Assembly: GCF_011397635.1 (NCBI RefSeq)
Contig: NC_064765.1
Coordinates: forward strand, 34,143,132-34,207,131
Source of the DNA: Epinephelus fuscoguttatus
Lineage: Eukaryota > Chordata > Actinopteri > Perciformes > Serranidae
Length of the DNA: 64,000 nt
Direction: 5' to 3'
Position numbers and translations under genes: made by a program. Shown one piece after another: positions 1 to 62,830 of the stretch; position 1 is the first letter of the stretch; each line of letters opens with the position of its first letter. The notes beneath the pieces were generated by a model that saw only the letters and a list, made by a program, of their open reading frames with translations, searched no databases and had not been told where the DNA came from.

Positions 1-98
1 ATCAGGGGCCCAGATTTAACTCAAAATCATAAATTCCTCAAACGCTTCTTGTACCCCCCCACCCCCCCGAAGTGAAACTTGAATCCTTTTATTTCCAG

Positions 99-3000: not shown

Positions 3001-3875
3001 GTAGGAGTAATACAACAAACTGCGCCACGTGGTCGTCTTGTTCCATGTGTATCAACAAAGAAATTATGCTTGCTAAATTGTGCAGATGCTAACATCCATC
3101 TTTGTGCCTTAGTCTGCAGGCAGGGAATTGAGAATGATAGCGAATGGGTTGGGGCAAACTTGGGACCATTTTCCCAACACGCATAGCGTACTCTGACCTC
3201 AAAGTCTTCAACCTTTCTAAGGTAAGTCATACGTTTTTCTCTCCTTCTTTTAACCAGTCTTCCTTGAAAACAGTAGCACAATATGCAGAACGTGGGAATC
3301 TGCATAGAGCGGTGGTTTTTCCATGTCAGAGCGAAAAGGAATTCATATATCCTCTTTGTTTGTGTCATCAGGGGGAGGTTCTGGAATCCCTCTCACCAAA
3401 CCAGAAGGCTGAGCTGCTCCTGGATCCAGACAGCGGTGCTTTGGAGGATGAGGTCTTCGTGAGGACGGTGTTGACAGGCTTGACAGAGTCCCCTGATGAT
3501 GACCAGCTCGAGGAGTTTTTTGAGGCTTTTGCAGACATCAATAAGCAGGTGAATGCTTAACTTTGAGATTGCCATATTTTCCCACAAAGTTGCCTTGCAA
3601 AGCAACCACTTAAAACTTGCCCTGGGCTTGCAGAATTCTTGCCATATCTAATCAGGGGCCCAGATTTAACTCAAAATGATAAATTCCTCAAACGCTTCTT
3701 GTATCTGTTGTCCTTGATGATGGCTTGAGTCATTCCCCTGATGCACTATAGTACAAAGGTGCTTCACCAAACTTGCTCTCAATTCTACACTGATTTCAGA
3801 AATGTAAAATACTCGCACCCGCACCCACCCCCACCCCCACCCCCCGAAGTGAAACTTGAATCCTTTTATTTCCAG
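99..3875 (+). repeat. Block 1 (15 exons)
   Basis: Exons: 99-307, 416-510, 621-646, 813-833, 927-954, 1059-1143, 1276-1421, 1507-1714, 1816-1919, 2013-2130, 2235-2402, 2596-2795, 2888-3000, 3113-3221, 3372-3548. Lengths off the intended pattern: exon 4 (21 rather than 22), 7 (146 rather than 147), 8 (208 rather than 212), 10 (118 rather than 119) and 14 (109 rather than 107). Exon 11 has a lost G and a gained C that nearly cancel. The intron before exon 1 (up to 98) is much shorter than in all other blocks: the usual sequence between the TTCTTGTA motif and the C-rich tract is missing. Exon 15 has a unique REV to RTV change. Confidence 0.9.
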
Positions 3876-6800
3876 AGAAACATCACCCTCATTAAAAATG
3901 CAGCTGTGCGAGACACCATCTTGAACCTGACCTTGGCAGCCCTTGCTCCTGAATTTGAAGAATTTGAGCCTGAAGACTTTGAACTGTGGTTCCAGCGCCA
4001 TTTGACTCCTGTGATGGCAAGCCTCCGCCCTGGCAGCTTGGTGGTGATCCCCAGAAACATCAGCTGTGCATCCTACGCAGCTATGTAAGAGACAATATTT
4101 CTGAAGTCCACAGCTCAACATTTTGGGTTTGCATCATGATGTCAGACTTTAGCTCCGGACAAGTCACAAAGATGTCTCTTTTCTTCCTTCAGCCTCACTG
4201 GTCTTCGGCAAAGCTTGGAATCTCTGCCACTGGACATTTCCTATGATGTCAGATCAAGCATAAAGTCACTCAAGAAGAGATTCCCACGTACGTGGCAAAA
4301 TGTTCACCTGACAAACTGTTTTCAGAAAAGCCAGTTACCACTACAATGACAAGAGCTGCACTGACGCCATGCCTCCTTTCAATTTTTCTCTCAAACAGGT
4401 TGCTCAGTTCCAGATTCCTTCATGGTGAGTTTATGTCTATGGATGTAATTCATGGATCACTGTATATTGGATCGAAATTTACAGGACACAAGTCTGACAC
4501 ATTAACTTTGGCAAGGTGGCGCATTAAGGTATTTCAACTTTTAGTAGCTGTAGCCACTCGAATAACAATTATGCTTTGCTTCTCTCCAGTGCAAAGAGAC
4601 CCGGTTGATGGTAAGTCTGTAAAGTACCAGACATTTTAACTTTGATGACAAGATAGCGTTGTGAAGGTACAATGCCTGATACAGAATATTGTCTTTTCAC
4701 AGAGGACCACATCTGTGCTGCATTTGAACGCAGTAGGGCAATGACTGTTTAGTCCAGTGCTAAGTTTGCGTAGGTTCAGCTTGTCCTCACAGTCTAACTA
4801 AGGTGACGGTGATTAACTTGTTATTGCTCTCCTCAGATCTCAAATTGAACACACACTGTCTGTTGACAGTTCCTCAGAGGCCTTGTGCAATTTCACCATC
4901 ACTGAGAATGCCTGCTCCTCGGTAAGATTGTTTTACGTAAGCTGTGAATCCCAAAGAAAGATTTGGCTTTGGCTTCATTACCCTCGTGATAGAAATCTCC
5001 ATAAGCTCTGAAACTCTTTGCTTTACTTCCTGTCTAATTTTTCCCAAGGCCACACATCTGACAGCCAGCAACGTTGCCACATTGATGAATTGCTCACTGC
5101 AAAGCCACAGGCCATTACCTGTAGAGGTCTGGAAGCTTTTCTTCCAAAAGCTTCTACTGCACTAGACGGGGCTCTTATGACATTCGCCACCATGGTAAAT
5201 CTAATCCCACAGTTTCACAGAATAGTTGTGTGCCCGCTGCAAATCTGTATCAGGCCAAAATGACTTTTTCCAATTCCAGGCCCCAGGGACAGCAACCCAT
5301 CCTTGTCACATATGCTTGAGGCTCTTGGAGAAGTGAGAATTGCCAACTTCAGTCGGGCCCAACTGCAGAACGAAACCTTTGTCAGCAACTGGTTCCAAAC
5401 AAAGATTCGTCCATTTTGGCCTCTCCATCCCCCAACTTCCTATTCTGCCTTAGCGCCAAGAACTTCAGCTGCCATACATACCAGACTGTGTAAGTAAATG
5501 TGTGATATTTTGCTCCCCTTTGAACAAGGTTGCAGAGGAACCTGCAGATTTACAGTTGTCAAGTGTTTAAAGCCTTCTCTCAAATTTTAGTATCCAGGCA
5601 TTCAGCAGCCAAATGGCATACATGGACAGAGAAAGACAGCACACAGTCTACACTCATTTCATCAAGCCATTCCTTTCAAGAAACGACTCATCAGGTAAAG
5701 GCAGGTGCCCAAGCTCAATTTGGTGATGTCCTGATGGCATACAGTGGTTACACCCTGCCAATGTCTTTCTTTCTGGCTTCTTTGCAGATCCTGGCTGTGT
5801 CTCATTTGACGGAGATAGTGAAGAGTGGCTACGGGCAAACCTTGGCGGCTTTTCTGGTTTTGCAACCCTACAGGATCTGCAAGCCCTAAATGCCAACTTC
5901 TCCAGTGTAAGTGGCACCTGTGGTGGCATTCCTTTTCCCAAACTGAAATGTCTTTCCTGTGGCTTTGCAATTCCAGCTGTCTGATTTTGCATTGATTCCC
6001 TCTCGTAGGCCGAATCGTTGTCAGTGCTCACTCCTACTCAGGTGGCACAGTTTACACTGAGCTCAGGGCCTTGAATGACACAAACCAAATCGACCGTGTG
6101 TTTGACCGTCTGGAGGAGGGCGATGCTCTGGAAAATGTGGACGAATTCCTGACGGAGCTCGCGGCAGAAGAAAAGGTAGGGTACTCTTGACACCCGGAAA
6201 AGAAAGACAATGCTAAGCTTTGAAGGAGCATAGTTCATACTTAGATACGTACGGAACCCTCTACATCAGCTGTAGGGGATTCTTTCAAGTGAAATATTTT
6301 GTTACATCCCTTCTCGCATCTTGTGTGGTGCACTATGGTATAAAAATCGTCTCATGTCATCATTTGTCAGGAACCTGATTTCCAGCCTCCTGTCAGAGAT
6401 CGTGTAATGAATAGGACCTTCGCCATCATCAGTCGCCATTTCCGCAATTTGAGGAAGCCGACTGGTTCATGTGGTTCCATGTGACACTGGTTACTTTCCT
6501 TCCAAGTTTCAGTCCAATGATGCTGAAGAATGCAACCTCAGACGTAAACTGCACAAACTACCATGTTGTGTGAGTAGCATTTCACATACAAGCAAGTTTG
6601 CATTGCAAAAAATACAACTGATGAAGGACTCCTTAAGAATGTTCCTTTTTGCCCTTTGCAGTGTGAGTGGGTTGGCCAAAGCTCACCCTGCAATGAGCCC
6701 ACATAGACAACAAGAAATCACACGTGTTCTACTTGGTTACATGAGAAAATCTGCGGGTGTCATCAACAAGCCAGGTAGGAGTAATACAACAAACTGCGCC

Positions 6801-9800
6801 ACGTGGTCGTCTTGTTCCATGTGTATCAACAAAGAAATTATGCTTGCTAAATTGTGCAGATGCTAACATCCATCTTTGTGCCTTAGTCTGCAGGCAGGGA
6901 ATTGAGAATGATAGCGAATGGGTTGGGGCAAACTTGGGACCATTTTCCCAACACGCAACGTACTCTGACCTCAAAGTCTTCAACCTTTCTAAGGTAAGTC
7001 ATACGATATTCTCTCCTTCTTTTTAACCAGTCTTCCTATAAAACAGTAGCACAATATGCAGAACGTGGGGAATCTGCATAGAGCGGTGGTTTTTCCATGT
7101 CAGAGCGAAAAGGAATTCATATATCCTCTTTGTTTGTGTCATCAGGGGGAGGTTCTGGAATCCCTCTCACCAAACCAGAAGGCTGAGCTGCTCCTGGATC
7201 CAGACAGCGGTGCTTTGGAGGATGAGGTCTTCGTGAGGGAGGTGTTGACAGGCTTGACAGAGTCCCCTGATGATGACCAGCTCGAGGAGTTTTTTGAGGC
7301 TTTTGCAGACATCAATAAGCAGGTGAATGCTTAACTTTGAGATTGCCATATTTTCCCACAAAGTTGCCTTGCAAAGCAACCACTTAAAACTTGCCCTGGG
7401 CTTGCAGAATTCTTGCCATATCTAATCAGGGGCCCAGATTTAACTCAAAATGATAAATTCCTCAAACGCTTCTTGTATCTGTTGTCCTTGATGATGGCTT
7501 GAGTCATTCCCCTGATGCACTATAGTACAAAGGTGCTTCACCAAACTTGCTCTCAATTCTACACTGATTTCAGAAATGTAAAATACCCACCCCACCCCCA
7601 CCCCCGACGTGAAACTTGAACCCTTTTATTTCCATAGAAACAACACCCTCATCAAAAATCCATCTGAGCGACACACCATCTTGAACCGGACCATGGCAGC
7701 CCTTGCTCCTGAATTTGAAGAATTTGAGCCTGAAGACTTTGAACTGTGGTTCCAGCGCCATTTGACTCCTGTGATGGCAAGCCTCCGCCCTGGCAGCTTG
7801 GTGGTGATCCCCAGAAACATCAGCTGTGCATCCTACGCAGCTATGTAAGAGACAATATTTCTGAAGTCCACAGCTCAACATTTTGGGTTTGCATCATGAT
7901 GTCAGACTTTAGCTCCGGACAAGTCACAAAGATGTCTCTTTTCTTCCTTCAGCCTCACTGGTCTTCGGCAAAGCTTGGAATCTCTGCCACTGGACATTTC
8001 CTATGATGTCAGATCAAGCATAAAGTCACTCAAGAAGAGATTCCCACGTACGTGGCAAAATGTTCACCTGACAAACTGTTTTCAGAAAAGCCAGTTACCA
8101 CTACAATGACAAGAGCTGCACTGACGCCATGCCTCCCTTTCAATTTTTCTCTCAAACAGGTTGCTCAGTTCCAGATTCCTTCATGGTGAGTTTATGTCTA
8201 TGGATGTAATTCATGGATCACTGTATATTGGATCGAAATTTACAGGACACAAGTCTGACACATTAACTTTGGCAAGGTGGCGCATTAAGGTATTTCAACT
8301 TTTAGTAGCTGTAGCCACTCGAATAACAATTATGCTTTGCTTCTCTCCAGTGCAAAGAGACCTGGTTGATGGTAAGTCTGTAAAGTACCAGACATTTTAA
8401 CTTTGATGACAAGATAGCGTTGTGAAGGTACAATGCCTGATACACGAATATTGTCTTTTCACAGAGGACCACATCTGTGCTGCATTTGAACGGTAGGGCA
8501 ATGACTGTTTAGTCCAGTGCTAAGTTTGCGTAGGTTCAGCTTGTCCTCACAGTCTAACTAAGGTGACGGTGATTAACTTGTTATTGCTCTCCTCAGATCT
8601 CAAATTGAACACACACTGTCTGTTGACAGTTCCTCAGAGGCCTTGTGCAATTTCACCATCACTGAGAATGCCTGCTCCTCGGTAAGATTGTTTTACGTAA
8701 GCTGTGAATCCCAAAGAAAGATTTGGCTTTGGCTTCATTACCCTCGTGATAGAAATCTCCATAAGCTCTGAAACTCTTTGCTTTACTTCCTGTCTAATTT
8801 TTCCCAAGGCCACACATCTGACAGCCAGCAACGTTGCCACATTGATGAATTGCTCACTGCAAAGCCACAGGCCATTACCTGTAGAGGTCTGGAAGCTTTT
8901 CTTCCAAAAGCTTCTACTGCACTAGACGGGCTCTTATGACATTCGCCACCATGGTAAATCTAATCCCACAGTTTCACAGAATAGTTGTGTGCCCGCTGCA
9001 AATCTGTATCAGGCCAAAATGACTTTTTCCAATTCCAGGCCCCAGGGACAGCAACCCATCCTTGTCACATATGCTTGAGGCTCTTGGAGAAGTGAGAATT
9101 GCCAACTTCAGTCGGGCCCAACTGCAGAACGAAACCTTTGTCAGCAACTGGTTCCAAACAAAGATTCGTCCATTTTGGCCTCTCCATCCCCCAACTTCCT
9201 ATTCTGCCTTAGCGCCAAGAACTTCAGCTGCCATACATACCAGACTGTGTAAGTAAATGTGTGATATTTTGCTCCCCTTTGAACAAGGTTGCAGAGGAAC
9301 CTGCAGATTTACAGTTGTCAAGTGTTTAAAGCCTTCTCTCAAATTTTAGTATCCAGGCATTCAGCAGCCAAATGGCATACATGGACAGAGAAAGACAGCA
9401 CACAGTCTACACTCATTTCATCAAGCCATTCCTTTCAAGAAACGACTCATCAGGTAAAGGCAGGTGCCCAAGCTCAATTTGGTGATGTCCTGATGGCATA
9501 CAGTGGTTACACCCTGCCAATGTCTTTCTTTCTGGCTTCTTTGCAGATCCTGGCTGTGTCTCATTTGACGGAGATAGTGAAGAGTGGCTACGGCAAACCT
9601 TGGCGGCTTTTCTGGTTTTGCAACCCTACAGGATCTGCAAGCCCTAAATGCCAACTTCTCCAGTGTAAGTGGCACCTGTGGTGGTAGCATTCCTTTTCCC
9701 AAACTGAAATGTCTTTCCTGTGGCTTTGCAATTCCAGCTGTCTGATTTTGCATTGATTCCCTCTCGTAGGCCGAATCGTTGTCAGTGCTCACTCCTACTC

Positions 9801-51800: not shown

Positions 51801-54800
51801 AGTTTGCATTGCAAAAAATACAACTGATGAAGGACTCCTTAAGAATGTTCCTTTTTGCCCTTTGCAGTGTGAGTGGGTTGGCCAAAGCTCACCCTGCAAT
51901 GAGCCTACCTAGACGACAAGGAATCACAGAAGTTCTTCTTGGTTACTTAAGACAATCTGCCAGTGTCATCAACAAGCCAGGTAGGGCTAACACATTATTC
52001 TGAAATATGCTGAATTGGCACTTAGAACAAAACTGGCACTTCATTTGTTCCACGTTTATCAACAACAAATAATGCCTGCTAAATCAGAACTATGCTAGTG
52101 ACTATCTTTTTGCCTTAGTTTGCAGACAGGGAATTCAGAGTGATGCTGAATGGCTTCAAATAAACCTGGGCCCCTTTTCCCAATACACAACATACGCTGA
52201 CCTCAAAGCTTTCAACCTCTCTGAGGTGAGTCATAAATTTTTCTACATATCTTCTGGGAAAATAGCAGTGTGATATGTGTTTCTCTACCGTATCAGTATG
52301 TGAACGCAACATTTTTTTATTAGTTAAACACATGTTCAACTTGTTCATTGCTTACTTTCTAAGGGCCATTAATATGGACATGAGCATTGTTTATTGGTGT
52401 TTTAAACAAAGTTCGGGCCTGTTGTCAGCTTCCTGTCCAGTTTAAAGGAAAGGAAGAGTTTTGGCCCGAACAGGCTCCCAGACTGTTGTTTTCAAGGGTC
52501 TGTAGTAAGGAAATGGTGTAATCCATAGTGGATTCTCAACTGCCCTCTTGTCAAAGGTTTTGGTGGGCTAATTTCTGAGCAGCAGAGCATTCCAGAGAAA
52601 ATGTGTGTGTGTGAATCTGTAAGGACATAGGATCAAGCAAAACGAGCTCCATCAGAGGGCCCTGCTTGCGTTCATAGGGTTACAAAGATTAATGGTTGCC
52701 CACAACACTGAAAGAAATTTGCAAGAGATTTTGTAACAAGTTGATAGTCTGAAGTTGAAGTCTGAAACAACTATCAGATCAGATTTTGGAGTTGGATTTA
52801 TTACATAGTCAGATGCCCTCTCCAGTAACACTGAAAAAGTGCCTGATTTCAAAAACAGAAGATAATCTTTTACTGACCCAACAAGCTGAATATCTGAAAT
52901 CTGTGTACAGTGTAACTGTTATGAGCACAGGGACAAGACCCACCAGCTGCACCAGAGAACAGCTGCTCAGGCTAGCCCTGAAATATGTGATGAACAAGGC
53001 CTCTAAGATATAGACAACACAGAAATTAATTCATGTTTCTACAGATTTTATCAGTCACTGTATTCCACAAATCAATCTACTAACCTAACAGCCTTAGAGG
53101 ATTTTTTTTAAGTAATGGAATGTTCCATCAGTCGATGATAATTGTGGCCGAACTGGAAACGATAATAACCACTTAAGAGATAAACTCTCCAACTAAATAA
53201 ACTATCTAGGCCTGGACAGATACCCTGCCCAATTTTTTAAAAAAATTCAAAACCCAGCTCTCCCCATTACTACTTTCTGTTTTTGAAGAGTTTTTATCTC
53301 ACTCCCTACCCTTCACTATGCCTCAGGCTGTCATCTCATTCTTTTAAAAAAAAAGATAAAGAGGAGCGTCGGTGGCTTAGTGGATAGAGCAGACGCCCCA
53401 TGTACAAAGGCTTCTTCCTTGCTGCAGTGGTCCTGGTTCAATTCTAGCCTGCAGCCCTTTGCTGCGTGTCCATCATTTCACGTGATCACACAGGTTTCAT
53501 AAAAGGTTGGCACTCCTTCTTCAACATCAGGCGACTTGTAAACAGTACTCAGGAATTGATTCTCACCTTAAATGCTGAAAAGGCATTTGATCGGGTGGAT
53601 TGGGACTTCTTGTTTCACACTTCACAAAAGTTTGGCTTCGGCCCTAAATTTATATCATGGATTAAGATCCTTTATTCATCCCCGGTTGCTGCAGTGCGTA
53701 CTAATAATAAAATATCTCAACTCAACTCAACTTTATTTATAAAGCGCTTTAAAACAACCACAGCTGAAACAAAGTGCTGTACACAGGAGGTCATAAAACA
53801 ACAAAACAGTGAGATAATAAAAAGCAGTTAAAACAAAAAAAACAATAAAAACAGCAACAAACAAATAAAAACAGAATGAGGTCTCATGCTGGGTTAAAAG
53901 CCAGTGAGTAAAAGTGGGTTTTAAGGTGGGTTTTAAAAACAGACAGTGAGGAGGCCTGTCTGATGTGCAGAGGTAGATTATTCCACATTTTTGGAGCAGC
54001 AACGGAGAATGCATGGTCTCGTCTAAGCGTTCGCTTGGACCTCGGTACCTCAAGGAGCAGCTGATCAGCTGACCTGAGGCACCGGGTAGGGGTGTAGGGG
54101 TGAAGAAGCTCAGAGAGGTAGGGCAGGGCGAGGCCATTTAAAGATTTAAAAACAAATAAAAGGATCTTAAAATGAACTCTAAAGTGCACAGGCAGCCAGT
54201 GGAGGGAGGCCAGGATGGGTGTAATGTCCTCTCTCATTCGTACTCCAGTTAGCAGACGAGCGGCAGCGTTCTGGACTAACTGGAGACATGCAAGGGAGGA
54301 CTGGCTAACTCCAAAATAAAGTGCATTGCAGTAATCCAGCTGAGATGTAATGAAGGCATGGATTACTGCTTCAAAGTGCTGATGTACAAGAAAAGGCTTC
54401 ACATGCTGCCTGAGGTGAAAGAAACTCGACTTTAGAACTGCACTAATTTGGCAGTCCAATTTAAAATCACTGTCCATCTTAAAACCCAAGTTAGTAACAG
54501 TAGACTTTGCATAAACTGCTAAAGGACCCAGATCAACAGGGGAGGAAACACAGGAGCCGCTGGGGCCAAACACCATCACCTCTGTTTTTTTTTTTTCATC
54601 AAAATTTAAAAAGTTTAGGGCCATCCAGGCTTTGATATCTTCAAGACATGACAGCAGGGGTTTGAGGGAAAATGCATCGCTTTTACTCAGGGGGACATAT
54701 ATCTGGCTGTCATCAGCATAGCAATGAAAAGTAACACCATGCTTTCTGAGGATAGACCCTAGGGGAAGCATATACAGGGAGAAAAGCAGGGGTCCTAAAA

Positions 54801-57800
54801 TTGAACCCTGTGGGACCCCATATAAAAGCGGAGCGGAGGAGGATTCACACGCACCAAGACCAACATACATAGTCCTGTCGGCTAAATAGGACCTGAACCA
54901 GTCCAGGGTGCTACCACCAATGCCCACTAGCTGCTGCAGACGTTTTAAATCGCCCTTTTTTGAGTTACAATGCGGTACCAGGCAGGGATGTCCTTTATCC
55001 CCACTTTTGTTTGCCTTGGCAATTGAGCCACTTGCCAAGGCTTTGAGAATGTCCGCAGATACCAAAGGGGTTAAACGAGGAGGCCTAGAACATAATGTAT
55101 CATTGTATGCTAAGGACATGTTACTTTATATATCCGATCCGTCTTCTAGTTTACCACACTTTATAGAACTGCTTAATAAATTTGGTCAGTTATCCAGCTA
55201 TAAAGTCAATTTTCAGAAAAGCAAATTCATGCCAATTGGAACTGCAAACCAGGATGCTTCTTTTTCTTTAATCCCCTTTAAAATCAGCTCCAAAAAAATT
55301 AGATATCTGGGAATTTGGATTACACGTTATTATAAAGATCTATATAAAGCCAATTATAAACCGCTTTTGTTACATATGAAGCAGGACCCATTATCCCTCT
55401 CTCTTAGAGGAAGAATGAACTCAATCAAGATGATTATTTTACTGAAACCTTTCTATATTTTCAGAGTCTGCCAATATTTATTACAAAATCTTTTTTCAGC
55501 AATTTAAACAGTCAAATTTCAACTTTCATTTGGACAAGAAACCACCCAGGACAAAAGAAAGAATACTACAAAGACCTTGTAAAACAGGGGGCATGTCACT
55601 TCCAATTTTTTATACTATTATTGGTCAGCTAACATTACAGCAATATTATATTGGTTAAGAAAAGACATTACTGCTAGCTGGGTAATAATGGAGAGAGCAT
55701 TCATGCAGTTTGCTCGTCTATCAATACTATGTGGTCATAAGTACTATATCGTAGGCAACTGGACTTGTTTGCGTTTGTTTCGCCTCTCATCCAAGAAGCT
55801 TCTTCAGTTCTAAATGACTGGTACGAAGTTGCAGGCTTTAAACCCTGTGTGCATGGGAACCCTTGCAGAGTCAGTAAGTGGTGTCGTAAGCCACCCCCTC
55901 TGTTTAACGATGGTCGTTCCAGCTTGACGAAGATGGCTTCTTAGAAACAAAGACTGTGATAGTGGCAATTTAGCACATAGTATTGTCAGTGAAGATTCTC
56001 AGTCAGTTCCAGCTTGACGTAGATGGCCATAGCCAATTGTAATAGCGCTTACAATTACCATGACCTGGATGACAGAGAATCTACACTGACAATACTATGA
56101 TTAAATTGCCACTATCACAGTCTTTGCCTAACGTCACATTAAATCCAGTTGTAAAGTCTGCTATTAAGATTTTTTTATCAGTTCAGACGACACTTCAAAC
56201 TAACAGACTCTTCACTTGCTGCACCAGTGGCAAAGAACCAAATGTTTACTCCGTCTACAATAGATGCAGCATTTGATACATGGTCAAACAGTCAAATCAC
56301 CTCGGTACGTGATCTCTATATTGATGACACTTATGCCTCTTTTGACCAGCTAGTTACAGTTACTCGCAGCTCCAAAGCTTTGCGGCTTCTCATCTTGGGT
56401 GTTTCCCTTCCTGCCCTTACCCATCCCTCTTAGATTCTGTTTTTGAATGTAACATAGCTAAAAAACAGTCCATAAGTCAAACATACGAATTACTCAATGC
56501 TCATAATCTTGCAGCCTTGGACTCTATAAAGCAGAGATGGGAGGAGGATAATGGAGAACAGATATCAGACGAGGTGTAGCATAAAGCTATTCAAAAAATG
56601 TATTAATCTTCTATTTGTCTGAGACATGTTGTTGTTCAATTTAAGATTGTACACCGACTCCACTGGTTCAGAGCTTGGTTGGCTAAGATTAGCAGTTATA
56701 CTGATCTTACATGCGACAGGTGTAAACAGTCTTTAGCCACTTTATGTCACACCTTCTGGTCATGTCCAAAACTTTTTTATTTCTGGGATTTAATATCTAA
56801 AACTTTTTCCAACAATGCTTGGACAGCTAGTTGCCCCATCTATGTCCATGGCAATATTTGGAGTTACTCCTCTGGATGTTAACTTAAGTAGAGCCCAAGC
56901 GGACATTGTCCCTTTCTGCTCACTTTCGGCCAGAAGGCTCATCCTGTGTAAATGGAAAGACTCTTTACCTCAGATTTATGGGCATTGGATTAAGGATGTT
57001 GTGCATCATTTACAATTGGCGAAAATTTGTTGTTTTATCAAAGGATTAACTGCACGCTTCTATACCACCAGGCAACCATTTTTAACATTTGTAGCAAGTA
57101 TGGAAGCTGAAAAATTGTAATGAAACATGCAAAACATGCTACACTCCCCTAGTTATGTCACACATGTTAATTAATTTGTCGTTATTTTTCCTTTTTTATT
57201 TTATTGATTTAAAAAAATATATTTTTTCATTTATTTATTTTTTTTCTTGTCTACTGGATTTCCTTTTGCTGATCTGGCTTTCTCTGTTTGTTTCTGGGTT
57301 GTTGGGTGGATGCAGTTGTCTTTTTGCTCTTGTTGGTTCTATGTTTGTTGATGCTTGTGCATCTTTATTGAATTATCAATAAAAATACCTTGTTTAAAAA
57401 AAATTAATATTTCTGATGTTTTTTGTCTTCTGTTCCTCTCTTAGGCGACAGTACTAGACTCTCTGTCTTCAGCACAAAAAGCGGAATTGCTCCTTGAACC
57501 AAAGAAATTGTCAAATGAAACCCTTGTGAGAATTGTGTTCACAGAACTTACTGCGTCATCACGTGTGGAAGACCTTGGCTCTTTCTTTGACAGATTTGTT
57601 AGTGGTGCTGCAGAGGTAAGTATTTTCATCACATTTAGTTATGAATTTTTCCACTAAATAAAAAAAGTATCAAATGACTTATTTATTTAAAATTTCTTTT
57701 TTTTTTCTAGCAAAACCTGACAACCATTGACCCAAGAGTGCGTAACACCATTCTAAATCTGACACTAGTTGCACTTGGCCCAGAACTATCCATGCTAGAT

Positions 57801-60800
57801 GCTGAGGGATTCAAGTTATGGTTCCAGGTCTACCTACCCCTGTTCCTCCCAGGCATCATGTCAAGCACATTTGAAATCATTCCACGGAATATCAGCTGTG
57901 ACTCATATCAAGAGATGTGAGTGGAAACAATTTTTCTATTCCTCCAGAAATGTTTAAAAAGGGAATGGAAAAAGAAAATGGAAACATTCTGCTACACATT
58001 TTGGTGAATAGAGGAATTTTTCATTGTTTTCACAGTGTCAAGGGTTGCAACAATGTTTTCACTCACCTCTCCGTGAGGCAGACCCAACAGGTTTTTGCAT
58101 TCATAATGGACTTTCTTCGGACACATTCCTCATCAGGTAACTTAGATGGAATAATTGCATGACATTGCATTTGCTAGTACTTGTGTGCTGTAAATTGTCT
58201 ATAAATCCACATTGCAATGATTTGTATGCCATGTTCAATTTAAAAAGTCAGTATCTTGATACTTAGGTCGCTCCTGCATTGAACCTGTAAATGATGACAG
58301 ACGTTGGCTCAAAGACAACTTTGGTCAGTTCCGTGTGCATGCCTCCTACATGGATTTTGTGACCCTGAAGAACAATTTTAATGGAGTAAGTGTTGCCTTT
58401 TACTCCTTGTCACTTTCATAGTCACACTGGCTCATTACAAATGCACCAAGGGGTGTAAATATATAGTCATGTGGACAGACAGGTAACTTATCAAGTGGAC
58501 CGTTTTGGTGATTGTCATCCTCCATCATCAGTGCTACATGGAACCTTATGTGTTAGTATATATTCTCCACTGACGCAAAGAGGTCATGAAACAATAACTT
58601 ATTATGAGCATTATTGCTTAAAACTAAAACTTGACTATAAATGTTCTGAATAATGATGAAGAAGTAGAAATAGGATGAAAAAGAGGAGTCTTGCAGGGGG
58701 TATGGTTACTGTAGGATCACCATGATTCGCTCACTTTTTAAAAAGGAACTGCCAAAATACTCTGCCCTGGATACAAGCACAACACACCACTTTTTCAATC
58801 CATTTACTCTCTGATGGATTCAGGAAATTCCCCATAATTCCATGGTAACAAGAATATGAGTTACCATGATTAACATGTACTGTATATACTGGTAATACAG
58901 ATTGTTTATAATTTCACCTCCATTAGAGTTCATAATCAGCAGATTTAACAGTATTTTAATTTTTGAATTAATACCAAAAAATCCAGACACAAGAGTGGGC
59001 TTAGAAATGAACCAACTCAATTCAGTTTTTTAGTACAAACAAGAGTCTGATGGACAAATTTCACACCAACCTAGACAATCTGAATCTAACAGGCAAATGG
59101 GGAAAAGCACTGCAGTTAGTTGAACCAAGGACCCTATCTCAAACCTGGCTCACAGCAACACACAATAGAGCTGTCATTGCTATTTTCAGACCAACACAGT
59201 TGTCATTTTGATGGCCAGTGCCCATGTTATGTAAATAGCAACTGTACTTGTGCCCGTCTGTGTGCAGGTCTTAAAATGAGGTGTGTTCAGGTTGTGTATT
59301 ACTATTTTGACCAGCAGAAAGTGACTGCGCCACTGACCAACAAAAACCTGGTCTAAGAGAGGCGCTGTGTGCATTTATGCCCAAGGAGCCAGTGTTAATT
59401 TTGGCAGCAAGTCTTAATTTTAGTCTTCAGAAAAAAATGCTTGTTAGTTTTAGTCACATGTTATTTATTTTTATTCTTCATAGTTTTAGTCTAGTTTTAG
59501 TTGACAACAGCTCCAAAAATTAAGTTGACAAAAACTCATTACATTTTGGTAAACTTTTTTAAACTTTTTCTTTTTCTTCTGATCCAATTGGGCTAAAACA
59601 GGTATCAGAAATAGGAATAAAGGTGACAGGATATATCAAGTGATGAAATTTCATTTCATTTTAATTTTTTCTTCTTCATACTTTAAACACACTACTTTTT
59701 CCTCTATTTCTCAGAGTTTTTGACAGGTTTAAAGAATGATTTACCAGCACACACATGCTCATCATCATTTGCAAAGCTCCAAATCTCTCTAAGGTTTTGA
59801 GACCATAAATACCTAATTTCAGACAACTAGACAACTACTTGTTTGTTTCCAGGTTCACTGTAACCTTTGACTTATCAACCTCACATTTAAGAAGCAGATA
59901 AATATTACTTTGTCATAGTTTTCATTAACAAAATGAACACTGGTTTTGTCACTGGACATTACTTGCCTTTGTTCCTTCTACAAGACAAAAAATATTTTAC
60001 ACAGTGACTGCAAATACTAAAAAGTCAGGTGATTAGCTTACTTTGTGACAATAGGTGAGAATTCCACTGTTGTGTTTGCTTACTGAAATGCTGCTTGTCA
60101 CTTTTAGGTGGAGGTTGCAGATCTTCTTACTATCAGTCAGCTGGCCCACCTTGCAGCAACTCCCTCACAGCTACAGGACATGGAAGACGTGACAGAAATT
60201 ATGACAGCCATTGACCCTGTTGACTTTGGGACTTTCTTTGACACAGTCTCACCAGCCATTGAGGTAAACGTTAGTATAGCTGACATTTTCTTTTTTGCTT
60301 AATAATACTCAAATTGCTTCATTTTCATTTTTGCGTCACTCAAACACAAGCCAACAGATTTGAAACATGCTTTATCAAATAGTAACTTTATAACCCCACT
60401 GAAATTAAAATGCATGGCTTTTGCAATATTATTAACACTGAAATGCCAGTTTATTGAGCAGACTTAGCTAAAACCAATGTGGTCTGCCCTGCAATAAATC
60501 CTAGCTTCATTAACTTCCGCGTCAGCCTACAGAAAAATGGCATCCCTCGGGCACTCTATACTGAGAGGCATTACTAATACTTTGCCCAGCTATTTACATC
60601 AGTTACATTAAACTATTTTTGTAGCAGTTACATGAGACAGCTAAATATAAACAAATTTTGGTTCTTTAGGTATCTCCTTGTGGCTTGTTGAACAAGCTAG
60701 CATAAAGAAAAAGGTGTCATTTTGTGTCCACCTCCTGAAACTGTTTTATTGTAGCAATAACATGAGTAAGAAATTACCTGTAAACAACAGCAAATATTAT

Positions 60801-62830
60801 ATTTTTAGACAGGCAAACATCCTGACTTTCATCGTGGCTTGTTGAACATGCTAGCAAACACTTGCTAACATAATTTTTCAGGCTAACTTAAGACAACTAA
60901 CAGTCAACTAATCAGCTGCTGTAGCATGCTTTGAAGTCAATATTCCTGCAATTGTGAAGGTTGGTTATTTCAAGTGCAGAATGGGGTGGTCCTGTTTCTT
61001 CAGTACCACAGCTAACATTTCATTGTTTTCAGTTTTTAACTTAGTGAGCCTGCTAAACTCTCAAGCAGGCACAGTGGCCCACCTTCCCAGAGGCTCAAAG
61101 CTAGTGCATGTCTTGATATTTCCATAGATGTTTTTTTAGCCCGTTTAAAAGCAACAAGGGAACAAAAATATTTGGCTTTCTCAAATACAAGCAGACAAAT
61201 GACTCATAAATGGTAACATGATCAATAACATACCATTTTTTCTATCCTGTAAACCATTCAGTTCCAACTCTTATTTATTTTATGCAAAATTCTCCCAGGA
61301 ACACCCAGTCAACTACACAGAGGAGGTGAAATCTGCCTTCCTCCAGGCAGTAATTGACAGAGGGGATCTGTCCTCCTCGGCCATCAATGACACAGAGTTC
61401 CTGCAGTGGCTCAGGATTCGACTGAGCCCTCTGGTGGTTAATCTCTCTCCCAGCCTGGTGACACCTTTATTTGACATCGGGAATAACAGGAGTTGTAACA
61501 GCAGCCAAGAGTTGTAAGAATTTCTTTGGTCTGGGTCATAATCATTGGGATTATATATATTTTTTAATTGCTTCAGACTAATTTTAATCTGAATTTAGGA
61601 TTAAATTGCTGGACGCACAACACTTGACACTCAGCAATGACACCCAAAAGGAAATTGGCAAAAGCATCCTCCTCTTCCTCCAAGGTTTGTGCAACAGATA
61701 CACATCTATAAATAACGAAAAATGTTAATATTGTTGTTAAATAGCCTGTGCCTATTTCAGTATGTTTTTTTCCTCAAATTTTATAATTTTGTATCAGGGT
61801 ACACAGTGATTTCATTTGTGTTCAACACAGGTCCAACACCCCTCAAGTGTTACAGTGGTGGAAGCTTCTACAACTATTTGAGAAACACTTTTCTCAGCTT
61901 TGATTTTCCAGATTTGTCGATGTTCACATCTCTCCTGCCACAGACACGCGAGTCAGAGGTATACTTAAACAAAACAATACTTTTTTTTTTTTGCCTCATT
62001 TTTAAATCCCAAAACAGACGGTAAAGTAAGAGTTACCACCTGCCATAATGCAAATGCCCACATATGTTGTGCTGTTAACTTTTTCAACCACTTATTTCTT
62101 TTCTTTCAGCTCCTCAGTACCATCAGCACCTCAGAGCTGAATCAGTTCCTCAGTCAACCCAATGTGATTGATAAAGACTCTGACATCTGTGTCATCTTCA
62201 ACAACTACAACAACACTCCTGCTTTCCTTGAAACTGTATGTCCTTCTTCTAAATCGAGCCATATAACTAACATTATTACTTATAAGACATGTCACTTTTA
62301 CATGCTGATATAAGTTGCATCTAAGTGGTGATTTTGTCACCATATACACCAGTTCTCTGTAATACACCATTTGATCATCAATTTGAAATTAAAGATTTAA
62401 CACTGGCCTCTCATTAAACGTAAATAAATACATGTGTATGTCATTAGGAGGATGTGCCAGATGATGTGAAGGAGGACATCCTCCCCTGTGTTTGGCCTTT
62501 GGCGCTGAGCAGCAACAGCAGAGCCGAGGTTAACGCCTGGTTTGACCAACGGTTGACAAACTATCTTAGATTCCTCAGAAAGAGCCTCATCAGCTCCAAT
62601 GAAGTGCAGAATGCTTCGTGTCTTGCCTTCCAGAAATTGTAAGTCTCCCTTTTTTTTTTTTTTTTTTTTGTTACAGTGTCAGAAAGTTTAGTGACAATAG
62701 GGCTATCATTATATTTTGTGTTGTTTTTCCTCCTGTAGTGTCTCTGTACTGGGAAATAACTTCACATACAACAACTCTGAATTTGGACAGCAGGATGTAT
62801 ACACCACCATCAGTACATACTTGATGACTG
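99..62830 (+). CDS. Giant tandem-module glycoprotein gene (partial, both ends missing)
   Basis: All plus-strand coding exons in the window appear to belong to one gene: 14 blocks of 15 exons (one lacking its last exon) followed by 12 diverged single-copy exons. Junction phases are compatible throughout, and every D exon ends in phase 0 before an A exon. Intended coding length is about 8,900 residues. The modules are rich in N-x-S/T sequons and have paired cysteines, which suggests an extracellular or lumenal protein. No start codon with signal peptide, no transmembrane segment and no stop exon is visible, so the gene runs past both edges. The A parts (L-x-x-L-(S/T)-x-x-Q-x-A-x-L) and D parts (N-L/F-G-x-F ... 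D-L-x-x-L) loosely resemble helical repeats of the mesothelin/otoancorin/stereocilin group; this is inference only. Many array exons carry indels that break frame as written. Confidence 0.8.
3876..7635 (+). repeat. Block 2 (15 exons)
   Basis: Exons: 3876-4084, 4193-4287, 4399-4424, 4590-4610, 4703-4730, 4837-4921, 5049-5194, 5280-5489, 5591-5694, 5788-5906, 6009-6175, 6371-6569, 6662-6774, 6887-6993, 7146-7322. Frame-changing lengths are in exons 4 (minus 1), 7 (minus 1), 8 (minus 2), 11 (minus 1) and 12 (minus 1), all in homopolymers. The exon 5 donor context is altered (two extra bases before GTAGGG). The C-rich tract upstream of exon 1 spans about 3815-3845. Confidence 0.9.
7636..11404 (+). 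repeat. Block 3 (15 exons)
   Basis: Exons: 7636-7844, 7953-8047, 8160-8185, 8351-8371, 8465-8492, 8597-8681, 8809-8953, 9039-9248, 9350-9453, 9547-9664, 9770-9937, 10133-10332, 10425-10536, 10649-10757, 10908-11083. The acceptor AG of exon 1 is changed to AT at 7634-7635; the nearest AG is two bases downstream. The stretch 7580-7700 beside the C-rich tract carries a cluster of substitutions seen in no other block. Frame-changing indels are in exons 4, 7, 8, 10, 13, 14 and 15. Confidence 0.88.
11405..15166 (+). repeat. Block 4 (15 exons)
   Basis: Exons: 11405-11608, 11717-11811, 11919-11944, 12110-12129, 12223-12250, 12356-12440, 12568-12713, 12799-13009, 13111-13214, 13308-13426, 13533-13700, 13896-14092, 14185-14295, 14408-14510, 14663-14839. 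Exon 1 lacks 5 bases. Exon 4 is 20 nt. Exon 12 lost GT near 13928, which as written makes an early TAG. Exon 14 lacks 4 bases. The exon 2 donor is reduced to GTGGCA. Several substitutions cluster at 12,200-12,290. Confidence 0.88.
15167..18942 (+). repeat. Block 5 (15 exons)
   Basis: Exons: 15167-15372, 15480-15573, 15684-15709, 15876-15897, 15991-16018, 16120-16204, 16332-16477, 16563-16774, 16876-16979, 17073-17190, 17297-17464, 17660-17859, 17952-18063, 18176-18282, 18432-18608. Exon 4 is the full 22 nt and exon 8 the full 212 nt. Exon 1 has an in-frame loss of 3 bases. Exons 2, 7, 10 and 13 are each one base short, and exon 10 has scrambled bases near 17,090. Confidence 0.9.
18875..18912. 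repeat. C-rich (CCCCCA) tract upstream of exon 1, present in every block
   Basis: This is one of the longest copies of a short tandem tract that ends about 30 bp before the exon 1 acceptor. Others lie at about 54-68, 3815-3845, 7588-7606, 11349-11374, 15105-15136, 22639-22664, 26388-26420, 30160-30191, 33928-33959, 37691-37727, 41466-41501, 45243-45278 and 49017-49051. Repeat number differs from copy to copy. The opposite strand has runs of four or more G in regular spacing and could form G-quadruplexes. Confidence 0.85.
18943..22694 (+). repeat. Block 6 (15 exons)
   Basis: Exons: 18943-19151, 19260-19354, 19465-19490, 19656-19676, 19770-19797, 19898-19982, 20110-20255, 20341-20551, 20652-20755, 20849-20968, 21073-21240, 21436-21625, 21718-21830, 21943-22049, 22198-22373. 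The donor of exon 5 is destroyed at 19,798 (GAACGCAGGG with no GT). Exon 12 lacks 10 bases around 21,500. Exons 4, 7, 8, 10 and 15 change frame. This is the first block with CAG instead of CGG in the FSxAQL stretch of exon 8. The C-rich tract (18,875-18,912) is among the longest. Confidence 0.9.
22695..26449 (+). repeat. Block 7 (15 exons)
   Basis: Exons: 22695-22903, 23012-23106, 23217-23242, 23408-23428, 23522-23549, 23652-23736, 23864-24006, 24092-24303, 24405-24508, 24602-24718, 24823-24990, 25184-25382, 25475-25583, 25696-25799, 25951-26122. The exon 2 donor is altered (CACGCGTGG). Exons 4, 7, 10, 12, 13, 14 and 15 are off length. The 4-base loss at the start of exon 13 is also found in block 8. 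Confidence 0.88.
26450..30221 (+). repeat. Block 8 (15 exons)
   Basis: Exons: 26450-26658, 26766-26860, 26971-26996, 27162-27182, 27276-27303, 27409-27493, 27619-27765, 27851-28062, 28164-28267, 28361-28479, 28586-28754, 28947-29145, 29238-29346, 29459-29565, 29717-29893. This is the only block with an intact 147-nt exon 7 (five A and four G in its two homopolymers). Exons 8, 9 and 10 are also full length, so module 2 reads through completely here. Exons 4, 11, 12 and 13 are off length, and the exon 2 donor is altered (CACGACGTGG). Confidence 0.9.
30222..33989 (+). repeat. Block 9 (15 exons)
   Basis: Exons: 30222-30426, 30535-30629, 30741-30766, 30932-30952, 31046-31073, 31180-31264, 31392-31536, 31622-31833, 31935-32038, 32132-32250, 32358-32523, 32719-32918, 33011-33117, 33230-33336, 33489-33662. 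Exon 1 lost 4 bases at its ACGCAG site, which as written makes a TAG at about 30,419. Exon 13 has an in-frame 6-base loss. Exons 4, 7 and 11 are short. Exon 15 has a net loss of 3 made of separate events. Confidence 0.88.
33990..37757 (+). repeat. Block 10 (15 exons)
   Basis: Exons: 33990-34198, 34307-34401, 34514-34539, 34694-34714, 34808-34835, 34940-35024, 35152-35296, 35382-35592, 35694-35797, 35891-36009, 36117-36283, 36479-36675, 36768-36879, 36991-37098, 37250-37425. Exons 4, 7, 8, 11, 12, 13, 14 and 15 are off length by 1-3 bases. The intron between exons 3 and 4 lacks about 9 bases at its CGCATTAAG site (near 34,634). Confidence 0.88.
37758..41531 (+). repeat. Block 11 (15 exons)
   Basis: Exons: 37758-37962, 38071-38165, 38274-38299, 38466-38487, 38581-38608, 38713-38797, 38925-39070, 39156-39364, 39466-39569, 39663-39781, 39888-40054, 40250-40448, 40541-40653, 40766-40872, 41022-41198. 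Exon 4 is the full 22 nt. Exon 1 lacks 4 bases. Exons 7, 8, 11 and 12 are short. A cluster of substitutions flanks the C-rich tract (about 37,620-37,755), as in block 3. Confidence 0.88.
41022..42578 (+). CDS. Module 1 of the block, reference copy (A, B, C plus a split D)
   Basis: This gives one reference copy of module 1, from block 11 exon 15 to block 12 exon 6. A (41022-41198, 59 codons) starts [17 protein letters not shown] and ends [14 protein letters not shown] (41532-41740) has sequons NIT, NLT and NIS, the LWFQRHLTP motif and the ending ISCASYAA. C (41849-41943) is an amphipathic helix around [13 protein letters not shown] and ends in basic SLKKRFP. The place of the usual single D exon is taken by four small exons (26, 22 or 21, 28 and 85 nt) encoding a Cys-rich stretch with RCSVP, CKET, HICAAF, ALCNFT and ACSS. 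Phases are 0-2-1 and then 0 at the end. The disulfide role of the cysteines is inferred. Confidence 0.8.
42704..43557 (+). CDS. Module 2 of the block, reference copy (A-B-C-D)
   Basis: A (42704-42848, intended 147 nt) reads THLTASNV... with an NCS sequon and ends in TFATM. B (42934-43143, intended 212 nt) has NFS and NET sequons, the [10 protein letters not shown] motif and the ending [10 protein letters not shown] (43242-43345, 104 nt) has [19 protein letters not shown] (43439-43557, 119 nt) starts [10 protein letters not shown], has [12 protein letters not shown] and ends [11 protein letters not shown] and D are among the best preserved exons: C has no length change in any of the 14 copies. 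Function is unknown; the helical pattern and sequons fit an extracellular solenoid-like protein. Confidence 0.8.
43665..44650 (+). CDS. Module 3 of the block, reference copy (A-B-C-D)
   Basis: A (43665-43832, 168 nt) has [17 protein letters not shown], an NDT sequon and [14 protein letters not shown] (44028-44226, intended 200 nt) has NRT, NAT and NCT sequons, the [12 protein letters not shown] motif and the ending VNCTNYHV. C (44319-44431, 113 nt) reads [21 protein letters not shown] (44544-44650, 107 nt) starts [10 protein letters not shown], has [11 protein letters not shown] and ends VFNLSK. Placed beside modules 1 and 2, the W, Cys and Tyr positions and all intron phases match, which shows descent from one four-exon ancestor. 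Confidence 0.8.
45309..49082 (+). repeat. Block 13 (15 exons)
   Basis: Exons: 45309-45516, 45625-45719, 45831-45856, 46020-46036, 46130-46157, 46262-46346, 46474-46619, 46705-46915, 47017-47120, 47214-47332, 47439-47606, 47802-48000, 48093-48205, 48318-48424, 48576-48750. Exon 4 is reduced to 17 nt. Exons 1, 7, 8 and 12 are one base short and exon 15 two bases short. Confidence 0.9.
51868..51980 (+). CDS. C exon at the array edge (chimeric)
   Basis: The first third is identical to the other 13 copies. From about 51,905 it differs at many positions (for example [12 protein letters not shown] in place of [13 protein letters not shown]) while staying open, 113 nt long and in the right phases. 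The homogenised array therefore ends within this coding exon. Confidence 0.85.
52119..52225 (+). CDS. Diverged D exon after the array
   Basis: Acceptor TTGCCTTAG, 107 nt, donor GTGAGT. It encodes [20 protein letters not shown] and ends in FNLSE, clearly homologous to exon 14 of the blocks but with many substitutions and no indel. It has no frameshift, unlike many array copies. Confidence 0.88.
52226..53362 (+). other. Intron sequence without recognised gene
   Basis: This is the first 1.1 kb of the 5.2 kb intron at the array edge. It is AT-rich with scattered stops in all frames, and no conserved motif was recognised. It ends in an A-rich run at 53,345-53,360 just before the SINE. Confidence 0.6.
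53363..53471 (+). mobile_element. tRNA-derived SINE (5' part)
   Basis: The head has a tRNA-like internal promoter: an A box near 53,373 (TGGCTTAGTGG) and a B box near 53,435 (GGTTCAATTC). It is followed by the CAGCCCTTTGCTGCGTGTC stretch typical of a widespread teleost SINE. It breaks off where L1 coding sequence begins, so its tail is missing or replaced. Confidence 0.75.
53717..54948 (-). mobile_element. L2-type LINE fragment inserted antisense in the L1
   Basis: On the minus strand an open frame (down to 53,884, upstream edge about 54,948) encodes the C-terminal half of a reverse transcriptase: [25 protein letters not shown], the catalytic CYADDSQIY (codons near 54,720) and a Cys-less C-terminal tail with [15 protein letters not shown]. 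Its 3' end is an AAAGCGC-type UTR ending in a repeated TTGAG tail at about 53,717, typical of fish L2 elements. It is 5' truncated. The frame also runs into flanking L1 sequence, which is not part of the element. The RT core is open, so this insertion is younger than the L1. Confidence 0.85.
55752..56125 (-). mobile_element. Penelope-like element terminal fragment (tentative)
   Basis: This non-L1 stretch lies inside the L1. Its minus strand contains GAAGAAGCTTCTTGGATGAG followed by GCGAAAC and AAGTCCAGTTGCC, and further up a stretch resembling terminal regions of fish Penelope-like elements. I recall this from known fish repeats and could not check it here. The right half is a large hairpin (separate entry). 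No coding region is present. Confidence 0.5.
55949..56125. repeat. Long inverted repeat (hairpin)
   Basis: The left arm is 55,949-56,000 and the right arm 56,075-56,125. They are reverse complements over about 51 bp with only a few mismatches and are separated by about 74 bp. The loop contains a smaller palindrome (ATTGTAA ... TTACAAT near 56,037-56,056). A stretch starting GTTCCAGCTTGACG occurs twice, at about 55,916 and 56,006. Confidence 0.85.
57445..57615 (+). CDS. Diverged A exon
   Basis: Acceptor CTCTTAG, donor GTAAGT, 171 nt, phase 0 at both ends. It encodes [19 protein letters not shown] and ends [11 protein letters not shown], homologous to exon 15 of the blocks. It lies 40 bp beyond the L1 tail, so the LINE nest inserted close to the acceptor without destroying it. 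Confidence 0.9.
57711..57916 (+). CDS. Diverged B exon
   Basis: 206 nt between a pyrimidine-rich acceptor and GTGAGT. It has [17 protein letters not shown], the [12 protein letters not shown] motif and the ending NISCDSYQE, closely parallel to exon 1 of the blocks, including the NLT and NIS sequons and the Cys and Tyr positions. It leaves in phase 2. Confidence 0.92.
58036..58136 (+). CDS. Diverged C exon
   Basis: 101 nt, phase 2 to 1. It encodes [20 protein letters not shown] and continues to [11 protein letters not shown], the same helical C part seen in the blocks. It has an additional cysteine (KGCN) absent from block C exons. Confidence 0.88.
58267..58385 (+). CDS. Diverged D exon
   Basis: 119 nt, phase 1 to 0, donor GTAAGT. 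It encodes [21 protein letters not shown] and ends TLKNNFNG. It matches the D exons of modules 2 and 3 (Cys near the start, W-L-x-x-N-F-G-x-F) and completes a normal single-exon D, unlike module 1 of the blocks. Confidence 0.9.
58386..60107 (+). other. Intron without recognised gene
   Basis: This is a 1.7 kb AT-rich intron. The part at about 59,390-59,560 (TTTTAGTCTAGTTTTAGTTGAC and neighbours) resembles a dispersed fish repeat that I cannot classify. No conserved exon was recognised in the rest. Confidence 0.55.
60108..60263 (+). CDS. Diverged A exon of the second single-copy module
   Basis: 156 nt, phase 0 at both ends. It encodes [17 protein letters not shown] and ends [13 protein letters not shown], the A pattern of L-L-x-I-S-Q-L-A-x-L and a terminal F-F. 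Donor GTAAAC. Confidence 0.85.
60264..61298 (+). other. Intron without recognised gene
   Basis: A 1.0 kb AT-rich intron. Short similar phrases recur (CTTGTTGAACAAGCTAGC near 60,680 and CTTGTTGAACATGCTAGC near 60,838), which may be an old local duplication. No exon or mobile element is recognised. Confidence 0.55.
61299..61513 (+). CDS. Diverged B exon of the second single-copy module
   Basis: 215 nt, acceptor CTCCCAG, donor GTAAGA, leaving in phase 2. It has [18 protein letters not shown], the [10 protein letters not shown] motif in place of WF, and the ending NRSCNSSQE with the conserved cysteine but no Tyr. Sequons NYT, NDT and NSS occur. Confidence 0.87.
61599..61684 (+). CDS. Diverged C exon of the second single-copy module
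   Basis: 86 nt, phase 2 to 1. It encodes [19 protein letters not shown] and then SILLFLQ, a short amphipathic helix as in other C exons. The donor is a less usual GTTTGT. Confidence 0.8.
61831..61958 (+). CDS. Diverged D exon of the second single-copy module
   Basis: 128 nt, phase 1 to 0. It encodes [20 protein letters not shown] and ends QTRESE. The Cys near the start is kept. The W of the W-L motif is replaced ([10 protein letters not shown]). Donor GTATAC. Confidence 0.82.
62110..62235 (+). CDS. Diverged A exon of the third single-copy module
   Basis: 126 nt, phase 0 at both ends. It encodes [18 protein letters not shown] with a Cys in SDICVIF and ends NNTPAFLET. It is shorter than other A exons. 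Donor GTATGT. Confidence 0.8.
62448..62638 (+). CDS. Diverged B exon of the third single-copy module
   Basis: 191 nt, leaving in phase 2. It starts [18 protein letters not shown], has the [11 protein letters not shown] motif and ends NASCLAFQK, keeping the N-x-S-C signature. An extra cysteine (LPCVW) could pair with the one in the preceding A exon. Donor GTAAGT. Confidence 0.87.
62739..62830 (+). CDS. Diverged C exon of the third single-copy module
   Basis: 92 nt, phase 2 to 1. It encodes [19 protein letters not shown] and ends STYLMT, with NFT and NNS sequons. Donor GTAAGA. The D exon that should follow is not seen before the window ends. Confidence 0.82.

Follow-up and report, generated by a model that had tools for sequence, protein, structure and literature searches.

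A tandem array of 604-codon, 15-exon blocks in a probable very large mesothelin-type gene of Epinephelus fuscoguttatus

Can a row of near-identical multi-exon units, none of which is open as assembled, be part of one gene encoding one very large protein? The question is raised by a stretch of 64,000 nucleotides from Epinephelus fuscoguttatus (assembly GCF_011397635.1, contig NC_064765.1, positions 34,143,132 to 34,207,131 of the forward strand), which is called the window here. The first-pass annotation of this DNA had proposed that a 15-exon block was expanded in frame, to at least 14 copies, inside a single gene.

Structure of the array and of the gene beyond it

The unit starts were marked by a 24-mer found in 14 copies, at positions 1, 3651, 7425, 11186, 14942, 18711, 22476, 26225, 29996, 33765, 37528, 41301, 45079 and 48853. 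The final repeated 24-mer begins at 51882, and the array proper stops near 51.9 kb. Thirteen complete units, each about 3.77 kb long, stand head to tail in the window and showed 98.85 to 99.81% pairwise identity with gaps left out of the count; they are followed by a 14th unit whose last three exons are diverged. Since the array enters the window across its left edge, 14 units is a lower bound. The earlier count of at least 14 copies was correct, but in copy 14 the near-identity to the others is lost early in exon 13.

1..3650, + strand: unit 1; exon 1 from 99; preceding intron short by about 124 bases
3651..7424, + strand: unit 2; exon 1 at 3876, exon 15 end at 7322
7425..11185, + strand: unit 3; exons 7636-11083
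11186..14941, + strand: unit 4; exons 11405-14839
14942..18710, + strand: unit 5; exons 15167-18608
18711..22475, + strand: unit 6; exons 18943-22373
22476..26224, + strand: unit 7; exons 22695-26122
26225..29995, + strand: unit 8; exons 26450-29893
29996..33764, + strand: unit 9; exons 30222-33662
33765..37527, + strand: unit 10; exons 33990-37425
37528..41300, + strand: unit 11; exons 37758-41198
41301..45078, + strand: unit 12; exons 41532-44976
45079..48852, + strand: unit 13; exons 45309-48750
48853..51980, + strand: unit 14; exons 1-12 (49083-51775) near-identical to the array; near-identity ends within exon 13 (51868-51980)

The intron bases lacking ahead of exon 1 in unit 1 (window 1-100) are present in all other units. 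The intron before exon 1 of every unit contained a C-rich CCCACC short repeat whose length differs per unit (for example 18885-18911); it could aid slippage or breakage, or could be a stretch that is hard to sequence. Antisense open reading frames of about 151 residues were rejected as genes, being open mirror frames across exon 1.

The exons were read on an adjusted consensus, in which any base found in three or more units was retained. On this consensus the exon lengths were 209, 95, 26, 22, 28, 85, 147, 212, 104, 119, 168, 200, 113, 107 and 177 nt. Together they make 1,812 nt, or 604 codons, running from phase 0 to phase 0 without a stop, and every intron is GT-AG; the exon lengths, their sum and the phase 0 borders given by the first-pass annotation were all reproduced. 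For the consensus frame to be open, a minority base has to be accepted five times (twice in exon 7 and once each in exons 4, 8 and 12), and exon 14 measures 109 nt if a minority 2-base insertion is included. The last exon of a unit runs on into the first exon of the following one in phase 0, and the splice sites at this junction are good. The intended exons visible in the window amount to 26,782 nt, about 8,927 residues, close to the figure of about 8,900 put forward before, and the gene structure thus predicts a very large protein.

The block divides into three modules of 204, 201 and 199 residues. By hhalign, modules 2 and 3 matched with a probability of 99.7% (E 1.7e-26) and modules 1 and 3 with 99.0% (E 2.7e-18), while the match of modules 1 and 2 was weaker (83.4%, 43 columns). 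Each module is composed of four exons with lengths of 2, 2, 2 and 0 modulo 3, except that the third exon of module 1 is replaced by four (26, 22, 28 and 85 nt). From this shared exon pattern we infer that an older four-exon module was tripled and the triple then amplified. Three consecutive micro-exons (exons 3, 4 and 5) lie in module 1, and modules 2 and 3 contain none.

The reading frame passes from the array into single-copy exons, and ten further exons follow unit 14 up to position 62830. The 14 exons in 51576-62830 join to 2,011 nt (670 residues) with no stop and no frameshift, all with GT-AG introns. Past the array, the exon pattern of the modules recurs in two complete single-copy modules and in the beginning of a further one. 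The 14 exons aligned one to one with those of the Epinephelus coioides models P0064 and P0066; exons that could be aligned singly matched at 89.8 to 100%.

52119..52225, + strand: diverged exon 14 of unit 14; 107 nt
57445..57615, + strand: diverged exon 15 of unit 14; 171 nt, behind an intron of about 5.2 kb with transposon debris
57711..60263, + strand: single-copy module 1; exons 57711-57916, 58036-58136, 58267-58385 and 60108-60263; 582 nt
61299..62235, + strand: single-copy module 2; exons 61299-61513, 61599-61684, 61831-61958 and 62110-62235; 555 nt
62448..62830, + strand: first two exons of single-copy module 3; 191 and 92 nt; the gene continues past the window end

The intron between exons 14 and 15 of unit 14 contained two overlapping reverse-transcriptase open reading frames, at 53884-55116 on the minus strand and 54908-55504 on the plus strand (RVT_1, E 7.7e-14 and 1.2e-14), which are apparently nested LINE debris.

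Frameshifts within the units

As written, none of the 14 units has all exons at the intended length. Each unit carried 2 to 11 frameshifting exonic indels, 107 in total (107 of the 111 exonic indel events shift the frame), so no copy in the assembled sequence has an intact block frame, a point that the first-pass annotation did not raise. Seven splice sites were off consensus, all beside indels.

For the counts against the adjusted consensus, and for the variant counts, the beginning of unit 1 and the C-rich part of the intron were masked. Compared with the adjusted consensus there were 215 indel events, at densities per kb per unit of 4.43 (exons) and 3.90 (introns), and deletions outnumbered insertions by 205 to 10, a consensus of this kind itself favouring deletion calls. 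Measured against the majority consensus, the units showed 233 substitutions and 187 indel events, of which 125 were deletions and 62 insertions. One-base deletions fell within runs of three or more in 116 of 149 cases, such runs making up 19.8% of positions, and indels recurred at identical homopolymers in scattered units. In the 13 exons past exon 12 of unit 14 (1,811 nt) no frameshift was found, versus 7.8 expected at the array rate (Poisson P about 4e-4). The E. coioides model, which comes from a separate assembly, has the same residues with no indels at the corresponding places. Because the indel density is equal in exons and introns, the deletions are biased to homopolymers, indels are about as many as substitutions and the uniquely mappable exons are intact, the array frameshifts are best read as errors of an unpolished long-read consensus, not as decay.

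The distinct variants among the window units comprised 49 nonsynonymous and 15 synonymous changes, a ratio of 3.3 versus 2.96 expected, with no sign of coding constraint. This fits errors and neutral recent variants alike, and dN/dS among the units is uninformative. There were 19 substitution variants common to two or more, but not all, units, so the array is not a single read multiplied.

Relatives in other teleosts and homogenisation of the blocks

Protein searches in three length classes, with the length of a candidate confined to between 0.55 and 1.75 times that of the query, gave 63 + 11 + 22 = 96 matches; in the search yielding 63, scoring was limited to the 7,990 candidates with the most shared words. 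All matches carrying an organism name were from teleosts. In proteins of many teleosts these searches recovered the 604-residue block in the same register. Most relatives are predicted gene models, and many database entries are fragments that cover a single block or two. Database names were uncharacterized, mesothelin-like, 'putative threonine-rich GPI-anchored' or seemingly wrong. Apparent misnames are seen in P0073 and P0078, where a Sarotherodon galilaeus protein is labelled as G-protein beta-3 subunit and one of Dissostichus eleginoides as chromosomal replication initiator DnaA.

The nearest relative was an uncharacterised E. coioides model of 6,983 residues with a signal-like start, a mesothelin-type region and a GPI-like tail. 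It contains nine block-like repeats, 98% identical to the block of the window, and an exon is missing in two of them. Full blocks were also found in Parambassis ranga (seven, and a nearly complete first), Sebastes umbrosus (five), Eleginops maclovinus (four) and Hypomesus transpacificus (about five), and the same-register block occurs in Esox lucius, Thunnus albacares and others. The copy number thus differs among the gene models of different species. In models reaching both ends, the array opens at block residue 1, and the module ahead of it is diverged (36 to 51% where seen). It closes near residue 599, and the modules that follow are diverged as well (22 to 26%). As the array starts and ends at the same block residues, the unit of amplification is common to the species. 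The splice phases, the frame continuing past the array and, above all, these teleost proteins with an uninterrupted 604-residue block in the same register support the proposed in-frame expansion inside one gene. The first-pass annotation had not noticed the three-module make-up of the block, the mesothelin type of the gene or the concerted evolution of the array.

Three E. coioides models with one locus tag (P0065, P0066 and P0068) measure 6,469, 5,865 and 5,261 residues, in steps of exactly 604, which could reflect block skipping in transcripts or an effect of annotation. The N-terminal region of another E. coioides model, P0064, contained a near-duplicate of about 90 residues (residues about 28-115 and 255-342).

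PF06060 was found in five of the 14 proteins scanned (P0063, P0086, P0091, P0095 and P0096; E 2.2e-81 to 1.6e-71) and was not found in the other nine, which are mostly partial models; database labels place it in further models, including that of E. coioides. Judged by eye, six of 12 termini had a signal-like start, and in most proteins the C-terminus is first rich in Thr and then hydrophobic. A dibasic [KR]R site inside the mesothelin-type region, likewise judged by eye as a putative cleavage site, was present in 21 of 22 aligned rows and the strict form R-X-[KR]-R in 11 of 22, several rows being of the same gene. It is situated about 360 to 500 residues from the C-terminal end in the four proteins measured, and in P0063 it lies 22 residues ahead of the match to solved mature human mesothelin. 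Judging from these relatives, the gene would be of mesothelin type, with the mesothelin-type region, signal peptide and C-terminal tail lying outside the window.

The repeated modules did not align as mesothelin domains (hhalign of the three modules against the mesothelin-type region, probability at most 1.3%). Pfam searches with parts of the block gave nothing above threshold and no ZP match, with an EF-hand match below threshold (E 0.14), and phmmer of module 2 against solved structures gave no match at E up to 1. Weak Pfam matches on relatives (Pox_I5, DUF6025) were dismissed, no single domain having passed. Predicted structures were helical solenoids (mean pLDDT 83.8 and 87.5). Among the matches listed, Foldseek and VIA-align returned generic HEAT or ARM solenoids only; mesothelin chains were absent from these listed matches, which has no bearing either way. 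All 12 cysteines of the block were kept in 26 to 28 of 28 block representatives, and nine of its 16 sequons recur in 25 or more of the 28. Because of this conservation, the block was probably maintained as a folded extracellular unit across teleosts.

Of the 96 proteins, 30 were hand-picked, and 27 gave at least one near-full block. The resulting set comprised 72 blocks, 71 from these 27 proteins of 24 species plus the window consensus. Only blocks at least 45% identical to the window block entered the block table and tree, diverged end copies being dropped. The tree was a quick one with SH-aLRT only, with long branches flagged in Sinocyclocheilus, Poeciliopsis and Anguilla. Repeats were more alike within than between species: the mean block identity within a protein was 91.5 to 100% (lowest pair 88.5%, in Hypomesus), versus 54.7 to 83.8% for the closest block of another species, with the window and second proteins of one species left out. 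Species labels changed 24 times on the tree, the minimum for 25 groups, and none of 200 shuffles, which ignore relatedness, was as low. The blocks formed a single group in 15 of the 16 species with two or more blocks. The exception was E. coioides, whose last block falls outside its other seven and the window and shares a diverged end with window unit 14.

The two groupers could be compared residue by residue. At residues 5, 75, 81, 172, 280, 289 and 516, all readable array units shared a residue that differed from the one common to all readable E. coioides blocks; residue 427 was likewise a fixed difference, save in unit 14. The end copy of the window retains the E. coioides state at 427 and 516. 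The interior copies were thus replaced together after the two groupers split, with the end copy lagging. In Esox lucius, two proteins with different LOC numbers (P0074 and P0088) had blocks 78% alike between them and 94 to 99% alike inside each, and these are perhaps two arrays homogenised separately.

Explanations and significance

We consider it probable, taking the evidence as a whole, that the locus is one very large teleost gene with an in-frame, homogenised array of superblocks, in which the frameshifts are born of error and the product is a secreted rod. The window would represent the middle and later part of this gene. The layout, as seen in relatives, would begin with a signal-like segment and a diverged module, continue with n 604-residue blocks and further diverged modules, and close with a mesothelin-type region, a stretch rich in Thr and a hydrophobic terminus. 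The copy number would change, and variants would spread, through unequal crossing-over and gene conversion among the units of about 3.8 kb. The product may enter the secretory pathway, be N-glycosylated at about 16 sites per block and form a long Armadillo-like helical rod whose length is set by the number of blocks. A possible cut at the dibasic site would release the block-bearing rod from a short GPI-anchored stub, or leave it bound to the stub. Such a protein would most likely serve as a long, glycan-rich, repetitive ligand-binding or spacer element at an epithelial surface, with reach and valency scaling with the number of blocks.

Long near-identical arrays are prone to assembly error, and the gene and the block may be real while the assembled copy number is wrong, by collapse or expansion. 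The unpolished look of the consensus and the E. coioides models, which hold nine block-like repeats or fewer, speak for such an error; since an array of eight clean blocks is also modelled in Parambassis ranga, long arrays recur, and we regard a wrong copy number as unlikely. A decaying pseudogene, with real frameshifts, untranslated expanded blocks and only the flanking exons intact, would agree with the lack of any unit intact as written and with the neutral look of the unit variants (49:15, versus 2.96 expected). We judge it very improbable, because indels nearly as frequent as substitutions (187 versus 233), 116 of 149 one-base deletions in homopolymer runs and the recurrence at the same homopolymers make up the pattern of long-read error, and the frames are open both in those exons that map uniquely and in the E. 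coioides model blocks. Slightly less credit still is due to the reading that the blocks, singly or a few at a time, belong to separate genes or transcripts and that no giant protein is made. It could account for the many database models that span one or two blocks only, and for the E. coioides models 604 residues apart if these mean block skipping, but no stop or start is needed at the block borders, exon 15 runs into exon 1 in phase 0, and several models of other species span four to eight blocks.

For the function, a gamete or seminal recognition protein, with a concerted array under sexual conflict as proposed for VERL, was considered as a rival. Concerted arrays that diverge fast between species are described for VERL (PMC3567151), and a catshark semen list includes a 'mesothelin-like protein' (PMC11083954), the link being one of name only. 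In the other direction, PMC7316992 reports a salmon gene with human best match MSLNL measured in gill, linked here through the match label only, and the parts of the block searched in Pfam gave no ZP-N match. A role in gametes is judged unlikely, and the epithelial surface remains the preferred setting. We might also speculate, at long range and with little confidence in the full combination, on a teleost-wide, undescribed giant mesothelin-type glycoprotein of at least ten thousand residues here: a furin-released rod of variable length, rewritten in each lineage by unequal exchange, which would give a species, and perhaps an individual, a uniform multivalent surface for gamete or mucosa recognition.

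Multi-exon repeats expanded within one gene are known from the long homologous repeats of complement receptor 1, the repeats of MUC16 and the super-repeats of nebulin, all of which differ from this gene in fold and family. Closer in form is the human LPA kringle IV type 2 VNTR, described in PMC11462820 as a 5.6 kb unit of two exons with 1 to about 40 units per allele, where multi-exon tandem units of several kb, repeated in frame, encode highly similar copies and account for the greater part of the protein. In the window we likewise found whole-exon tandem genomic units in frame inside one gene, with frameshifts as written; unlike LPA, a unit has 15 exons and 604 residues, the protein family is another, and homogenised arrays occur in many teleost lineages, within-species polymorphism being the feature of LPA. 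Abalone VERL, an egg coat receptor, is presented in PMC3567151 as a giant glycoprotein with about 22 homogenised tandem repeats; the likeness lies in the concerted evolution of the repeats, VERL having ZP-N repeats of about 150 residues instead of 604-residue helical superblocks in a mesothelin-type gene. The mesothelin/stereocilin/otoancorin superfamily was predicted to form GPI-anchored ARM-type superhelices, with a cleavage in the mesothelin precursor that separates the N-terminal part from the anchored part (PMC2628672). Relatives of the grouper gene resemble it in having PF06060 on the C-terminal side, an internal dibasic site and a GPI-like tail, and differ from it in the huge N-terminal array; no sequence homology could be detected between the modules of this array and the mesothelin-type region.

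The principle is thus known from LPA KIV-2 and VERL, and the fish gene is undescribed as far as open-licence PMC papers reach: a search of these found no description of gene or array. The sequences themselves are already deposited in public databases, so the novelty to that extent would lie in the description and not in the gene. Such genes stay hidden because assemblies carry frameshifts and annotation cuts them into short 'uncharacterized' pieces, some of them misnamed.

If translated as one chain, the product would be among the largest known vertebrate extracellular proteins, and the gene would be a multi-exon coding VNTR with a unit far larger than that of LPA KIV-2. Between the two groupers, eight residues of the block are already different in almost every copy. 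As the block is homogenised separately in many teleost lineages, it offers a replicated natural experiment on the concerted evolution of whole protein repeats.
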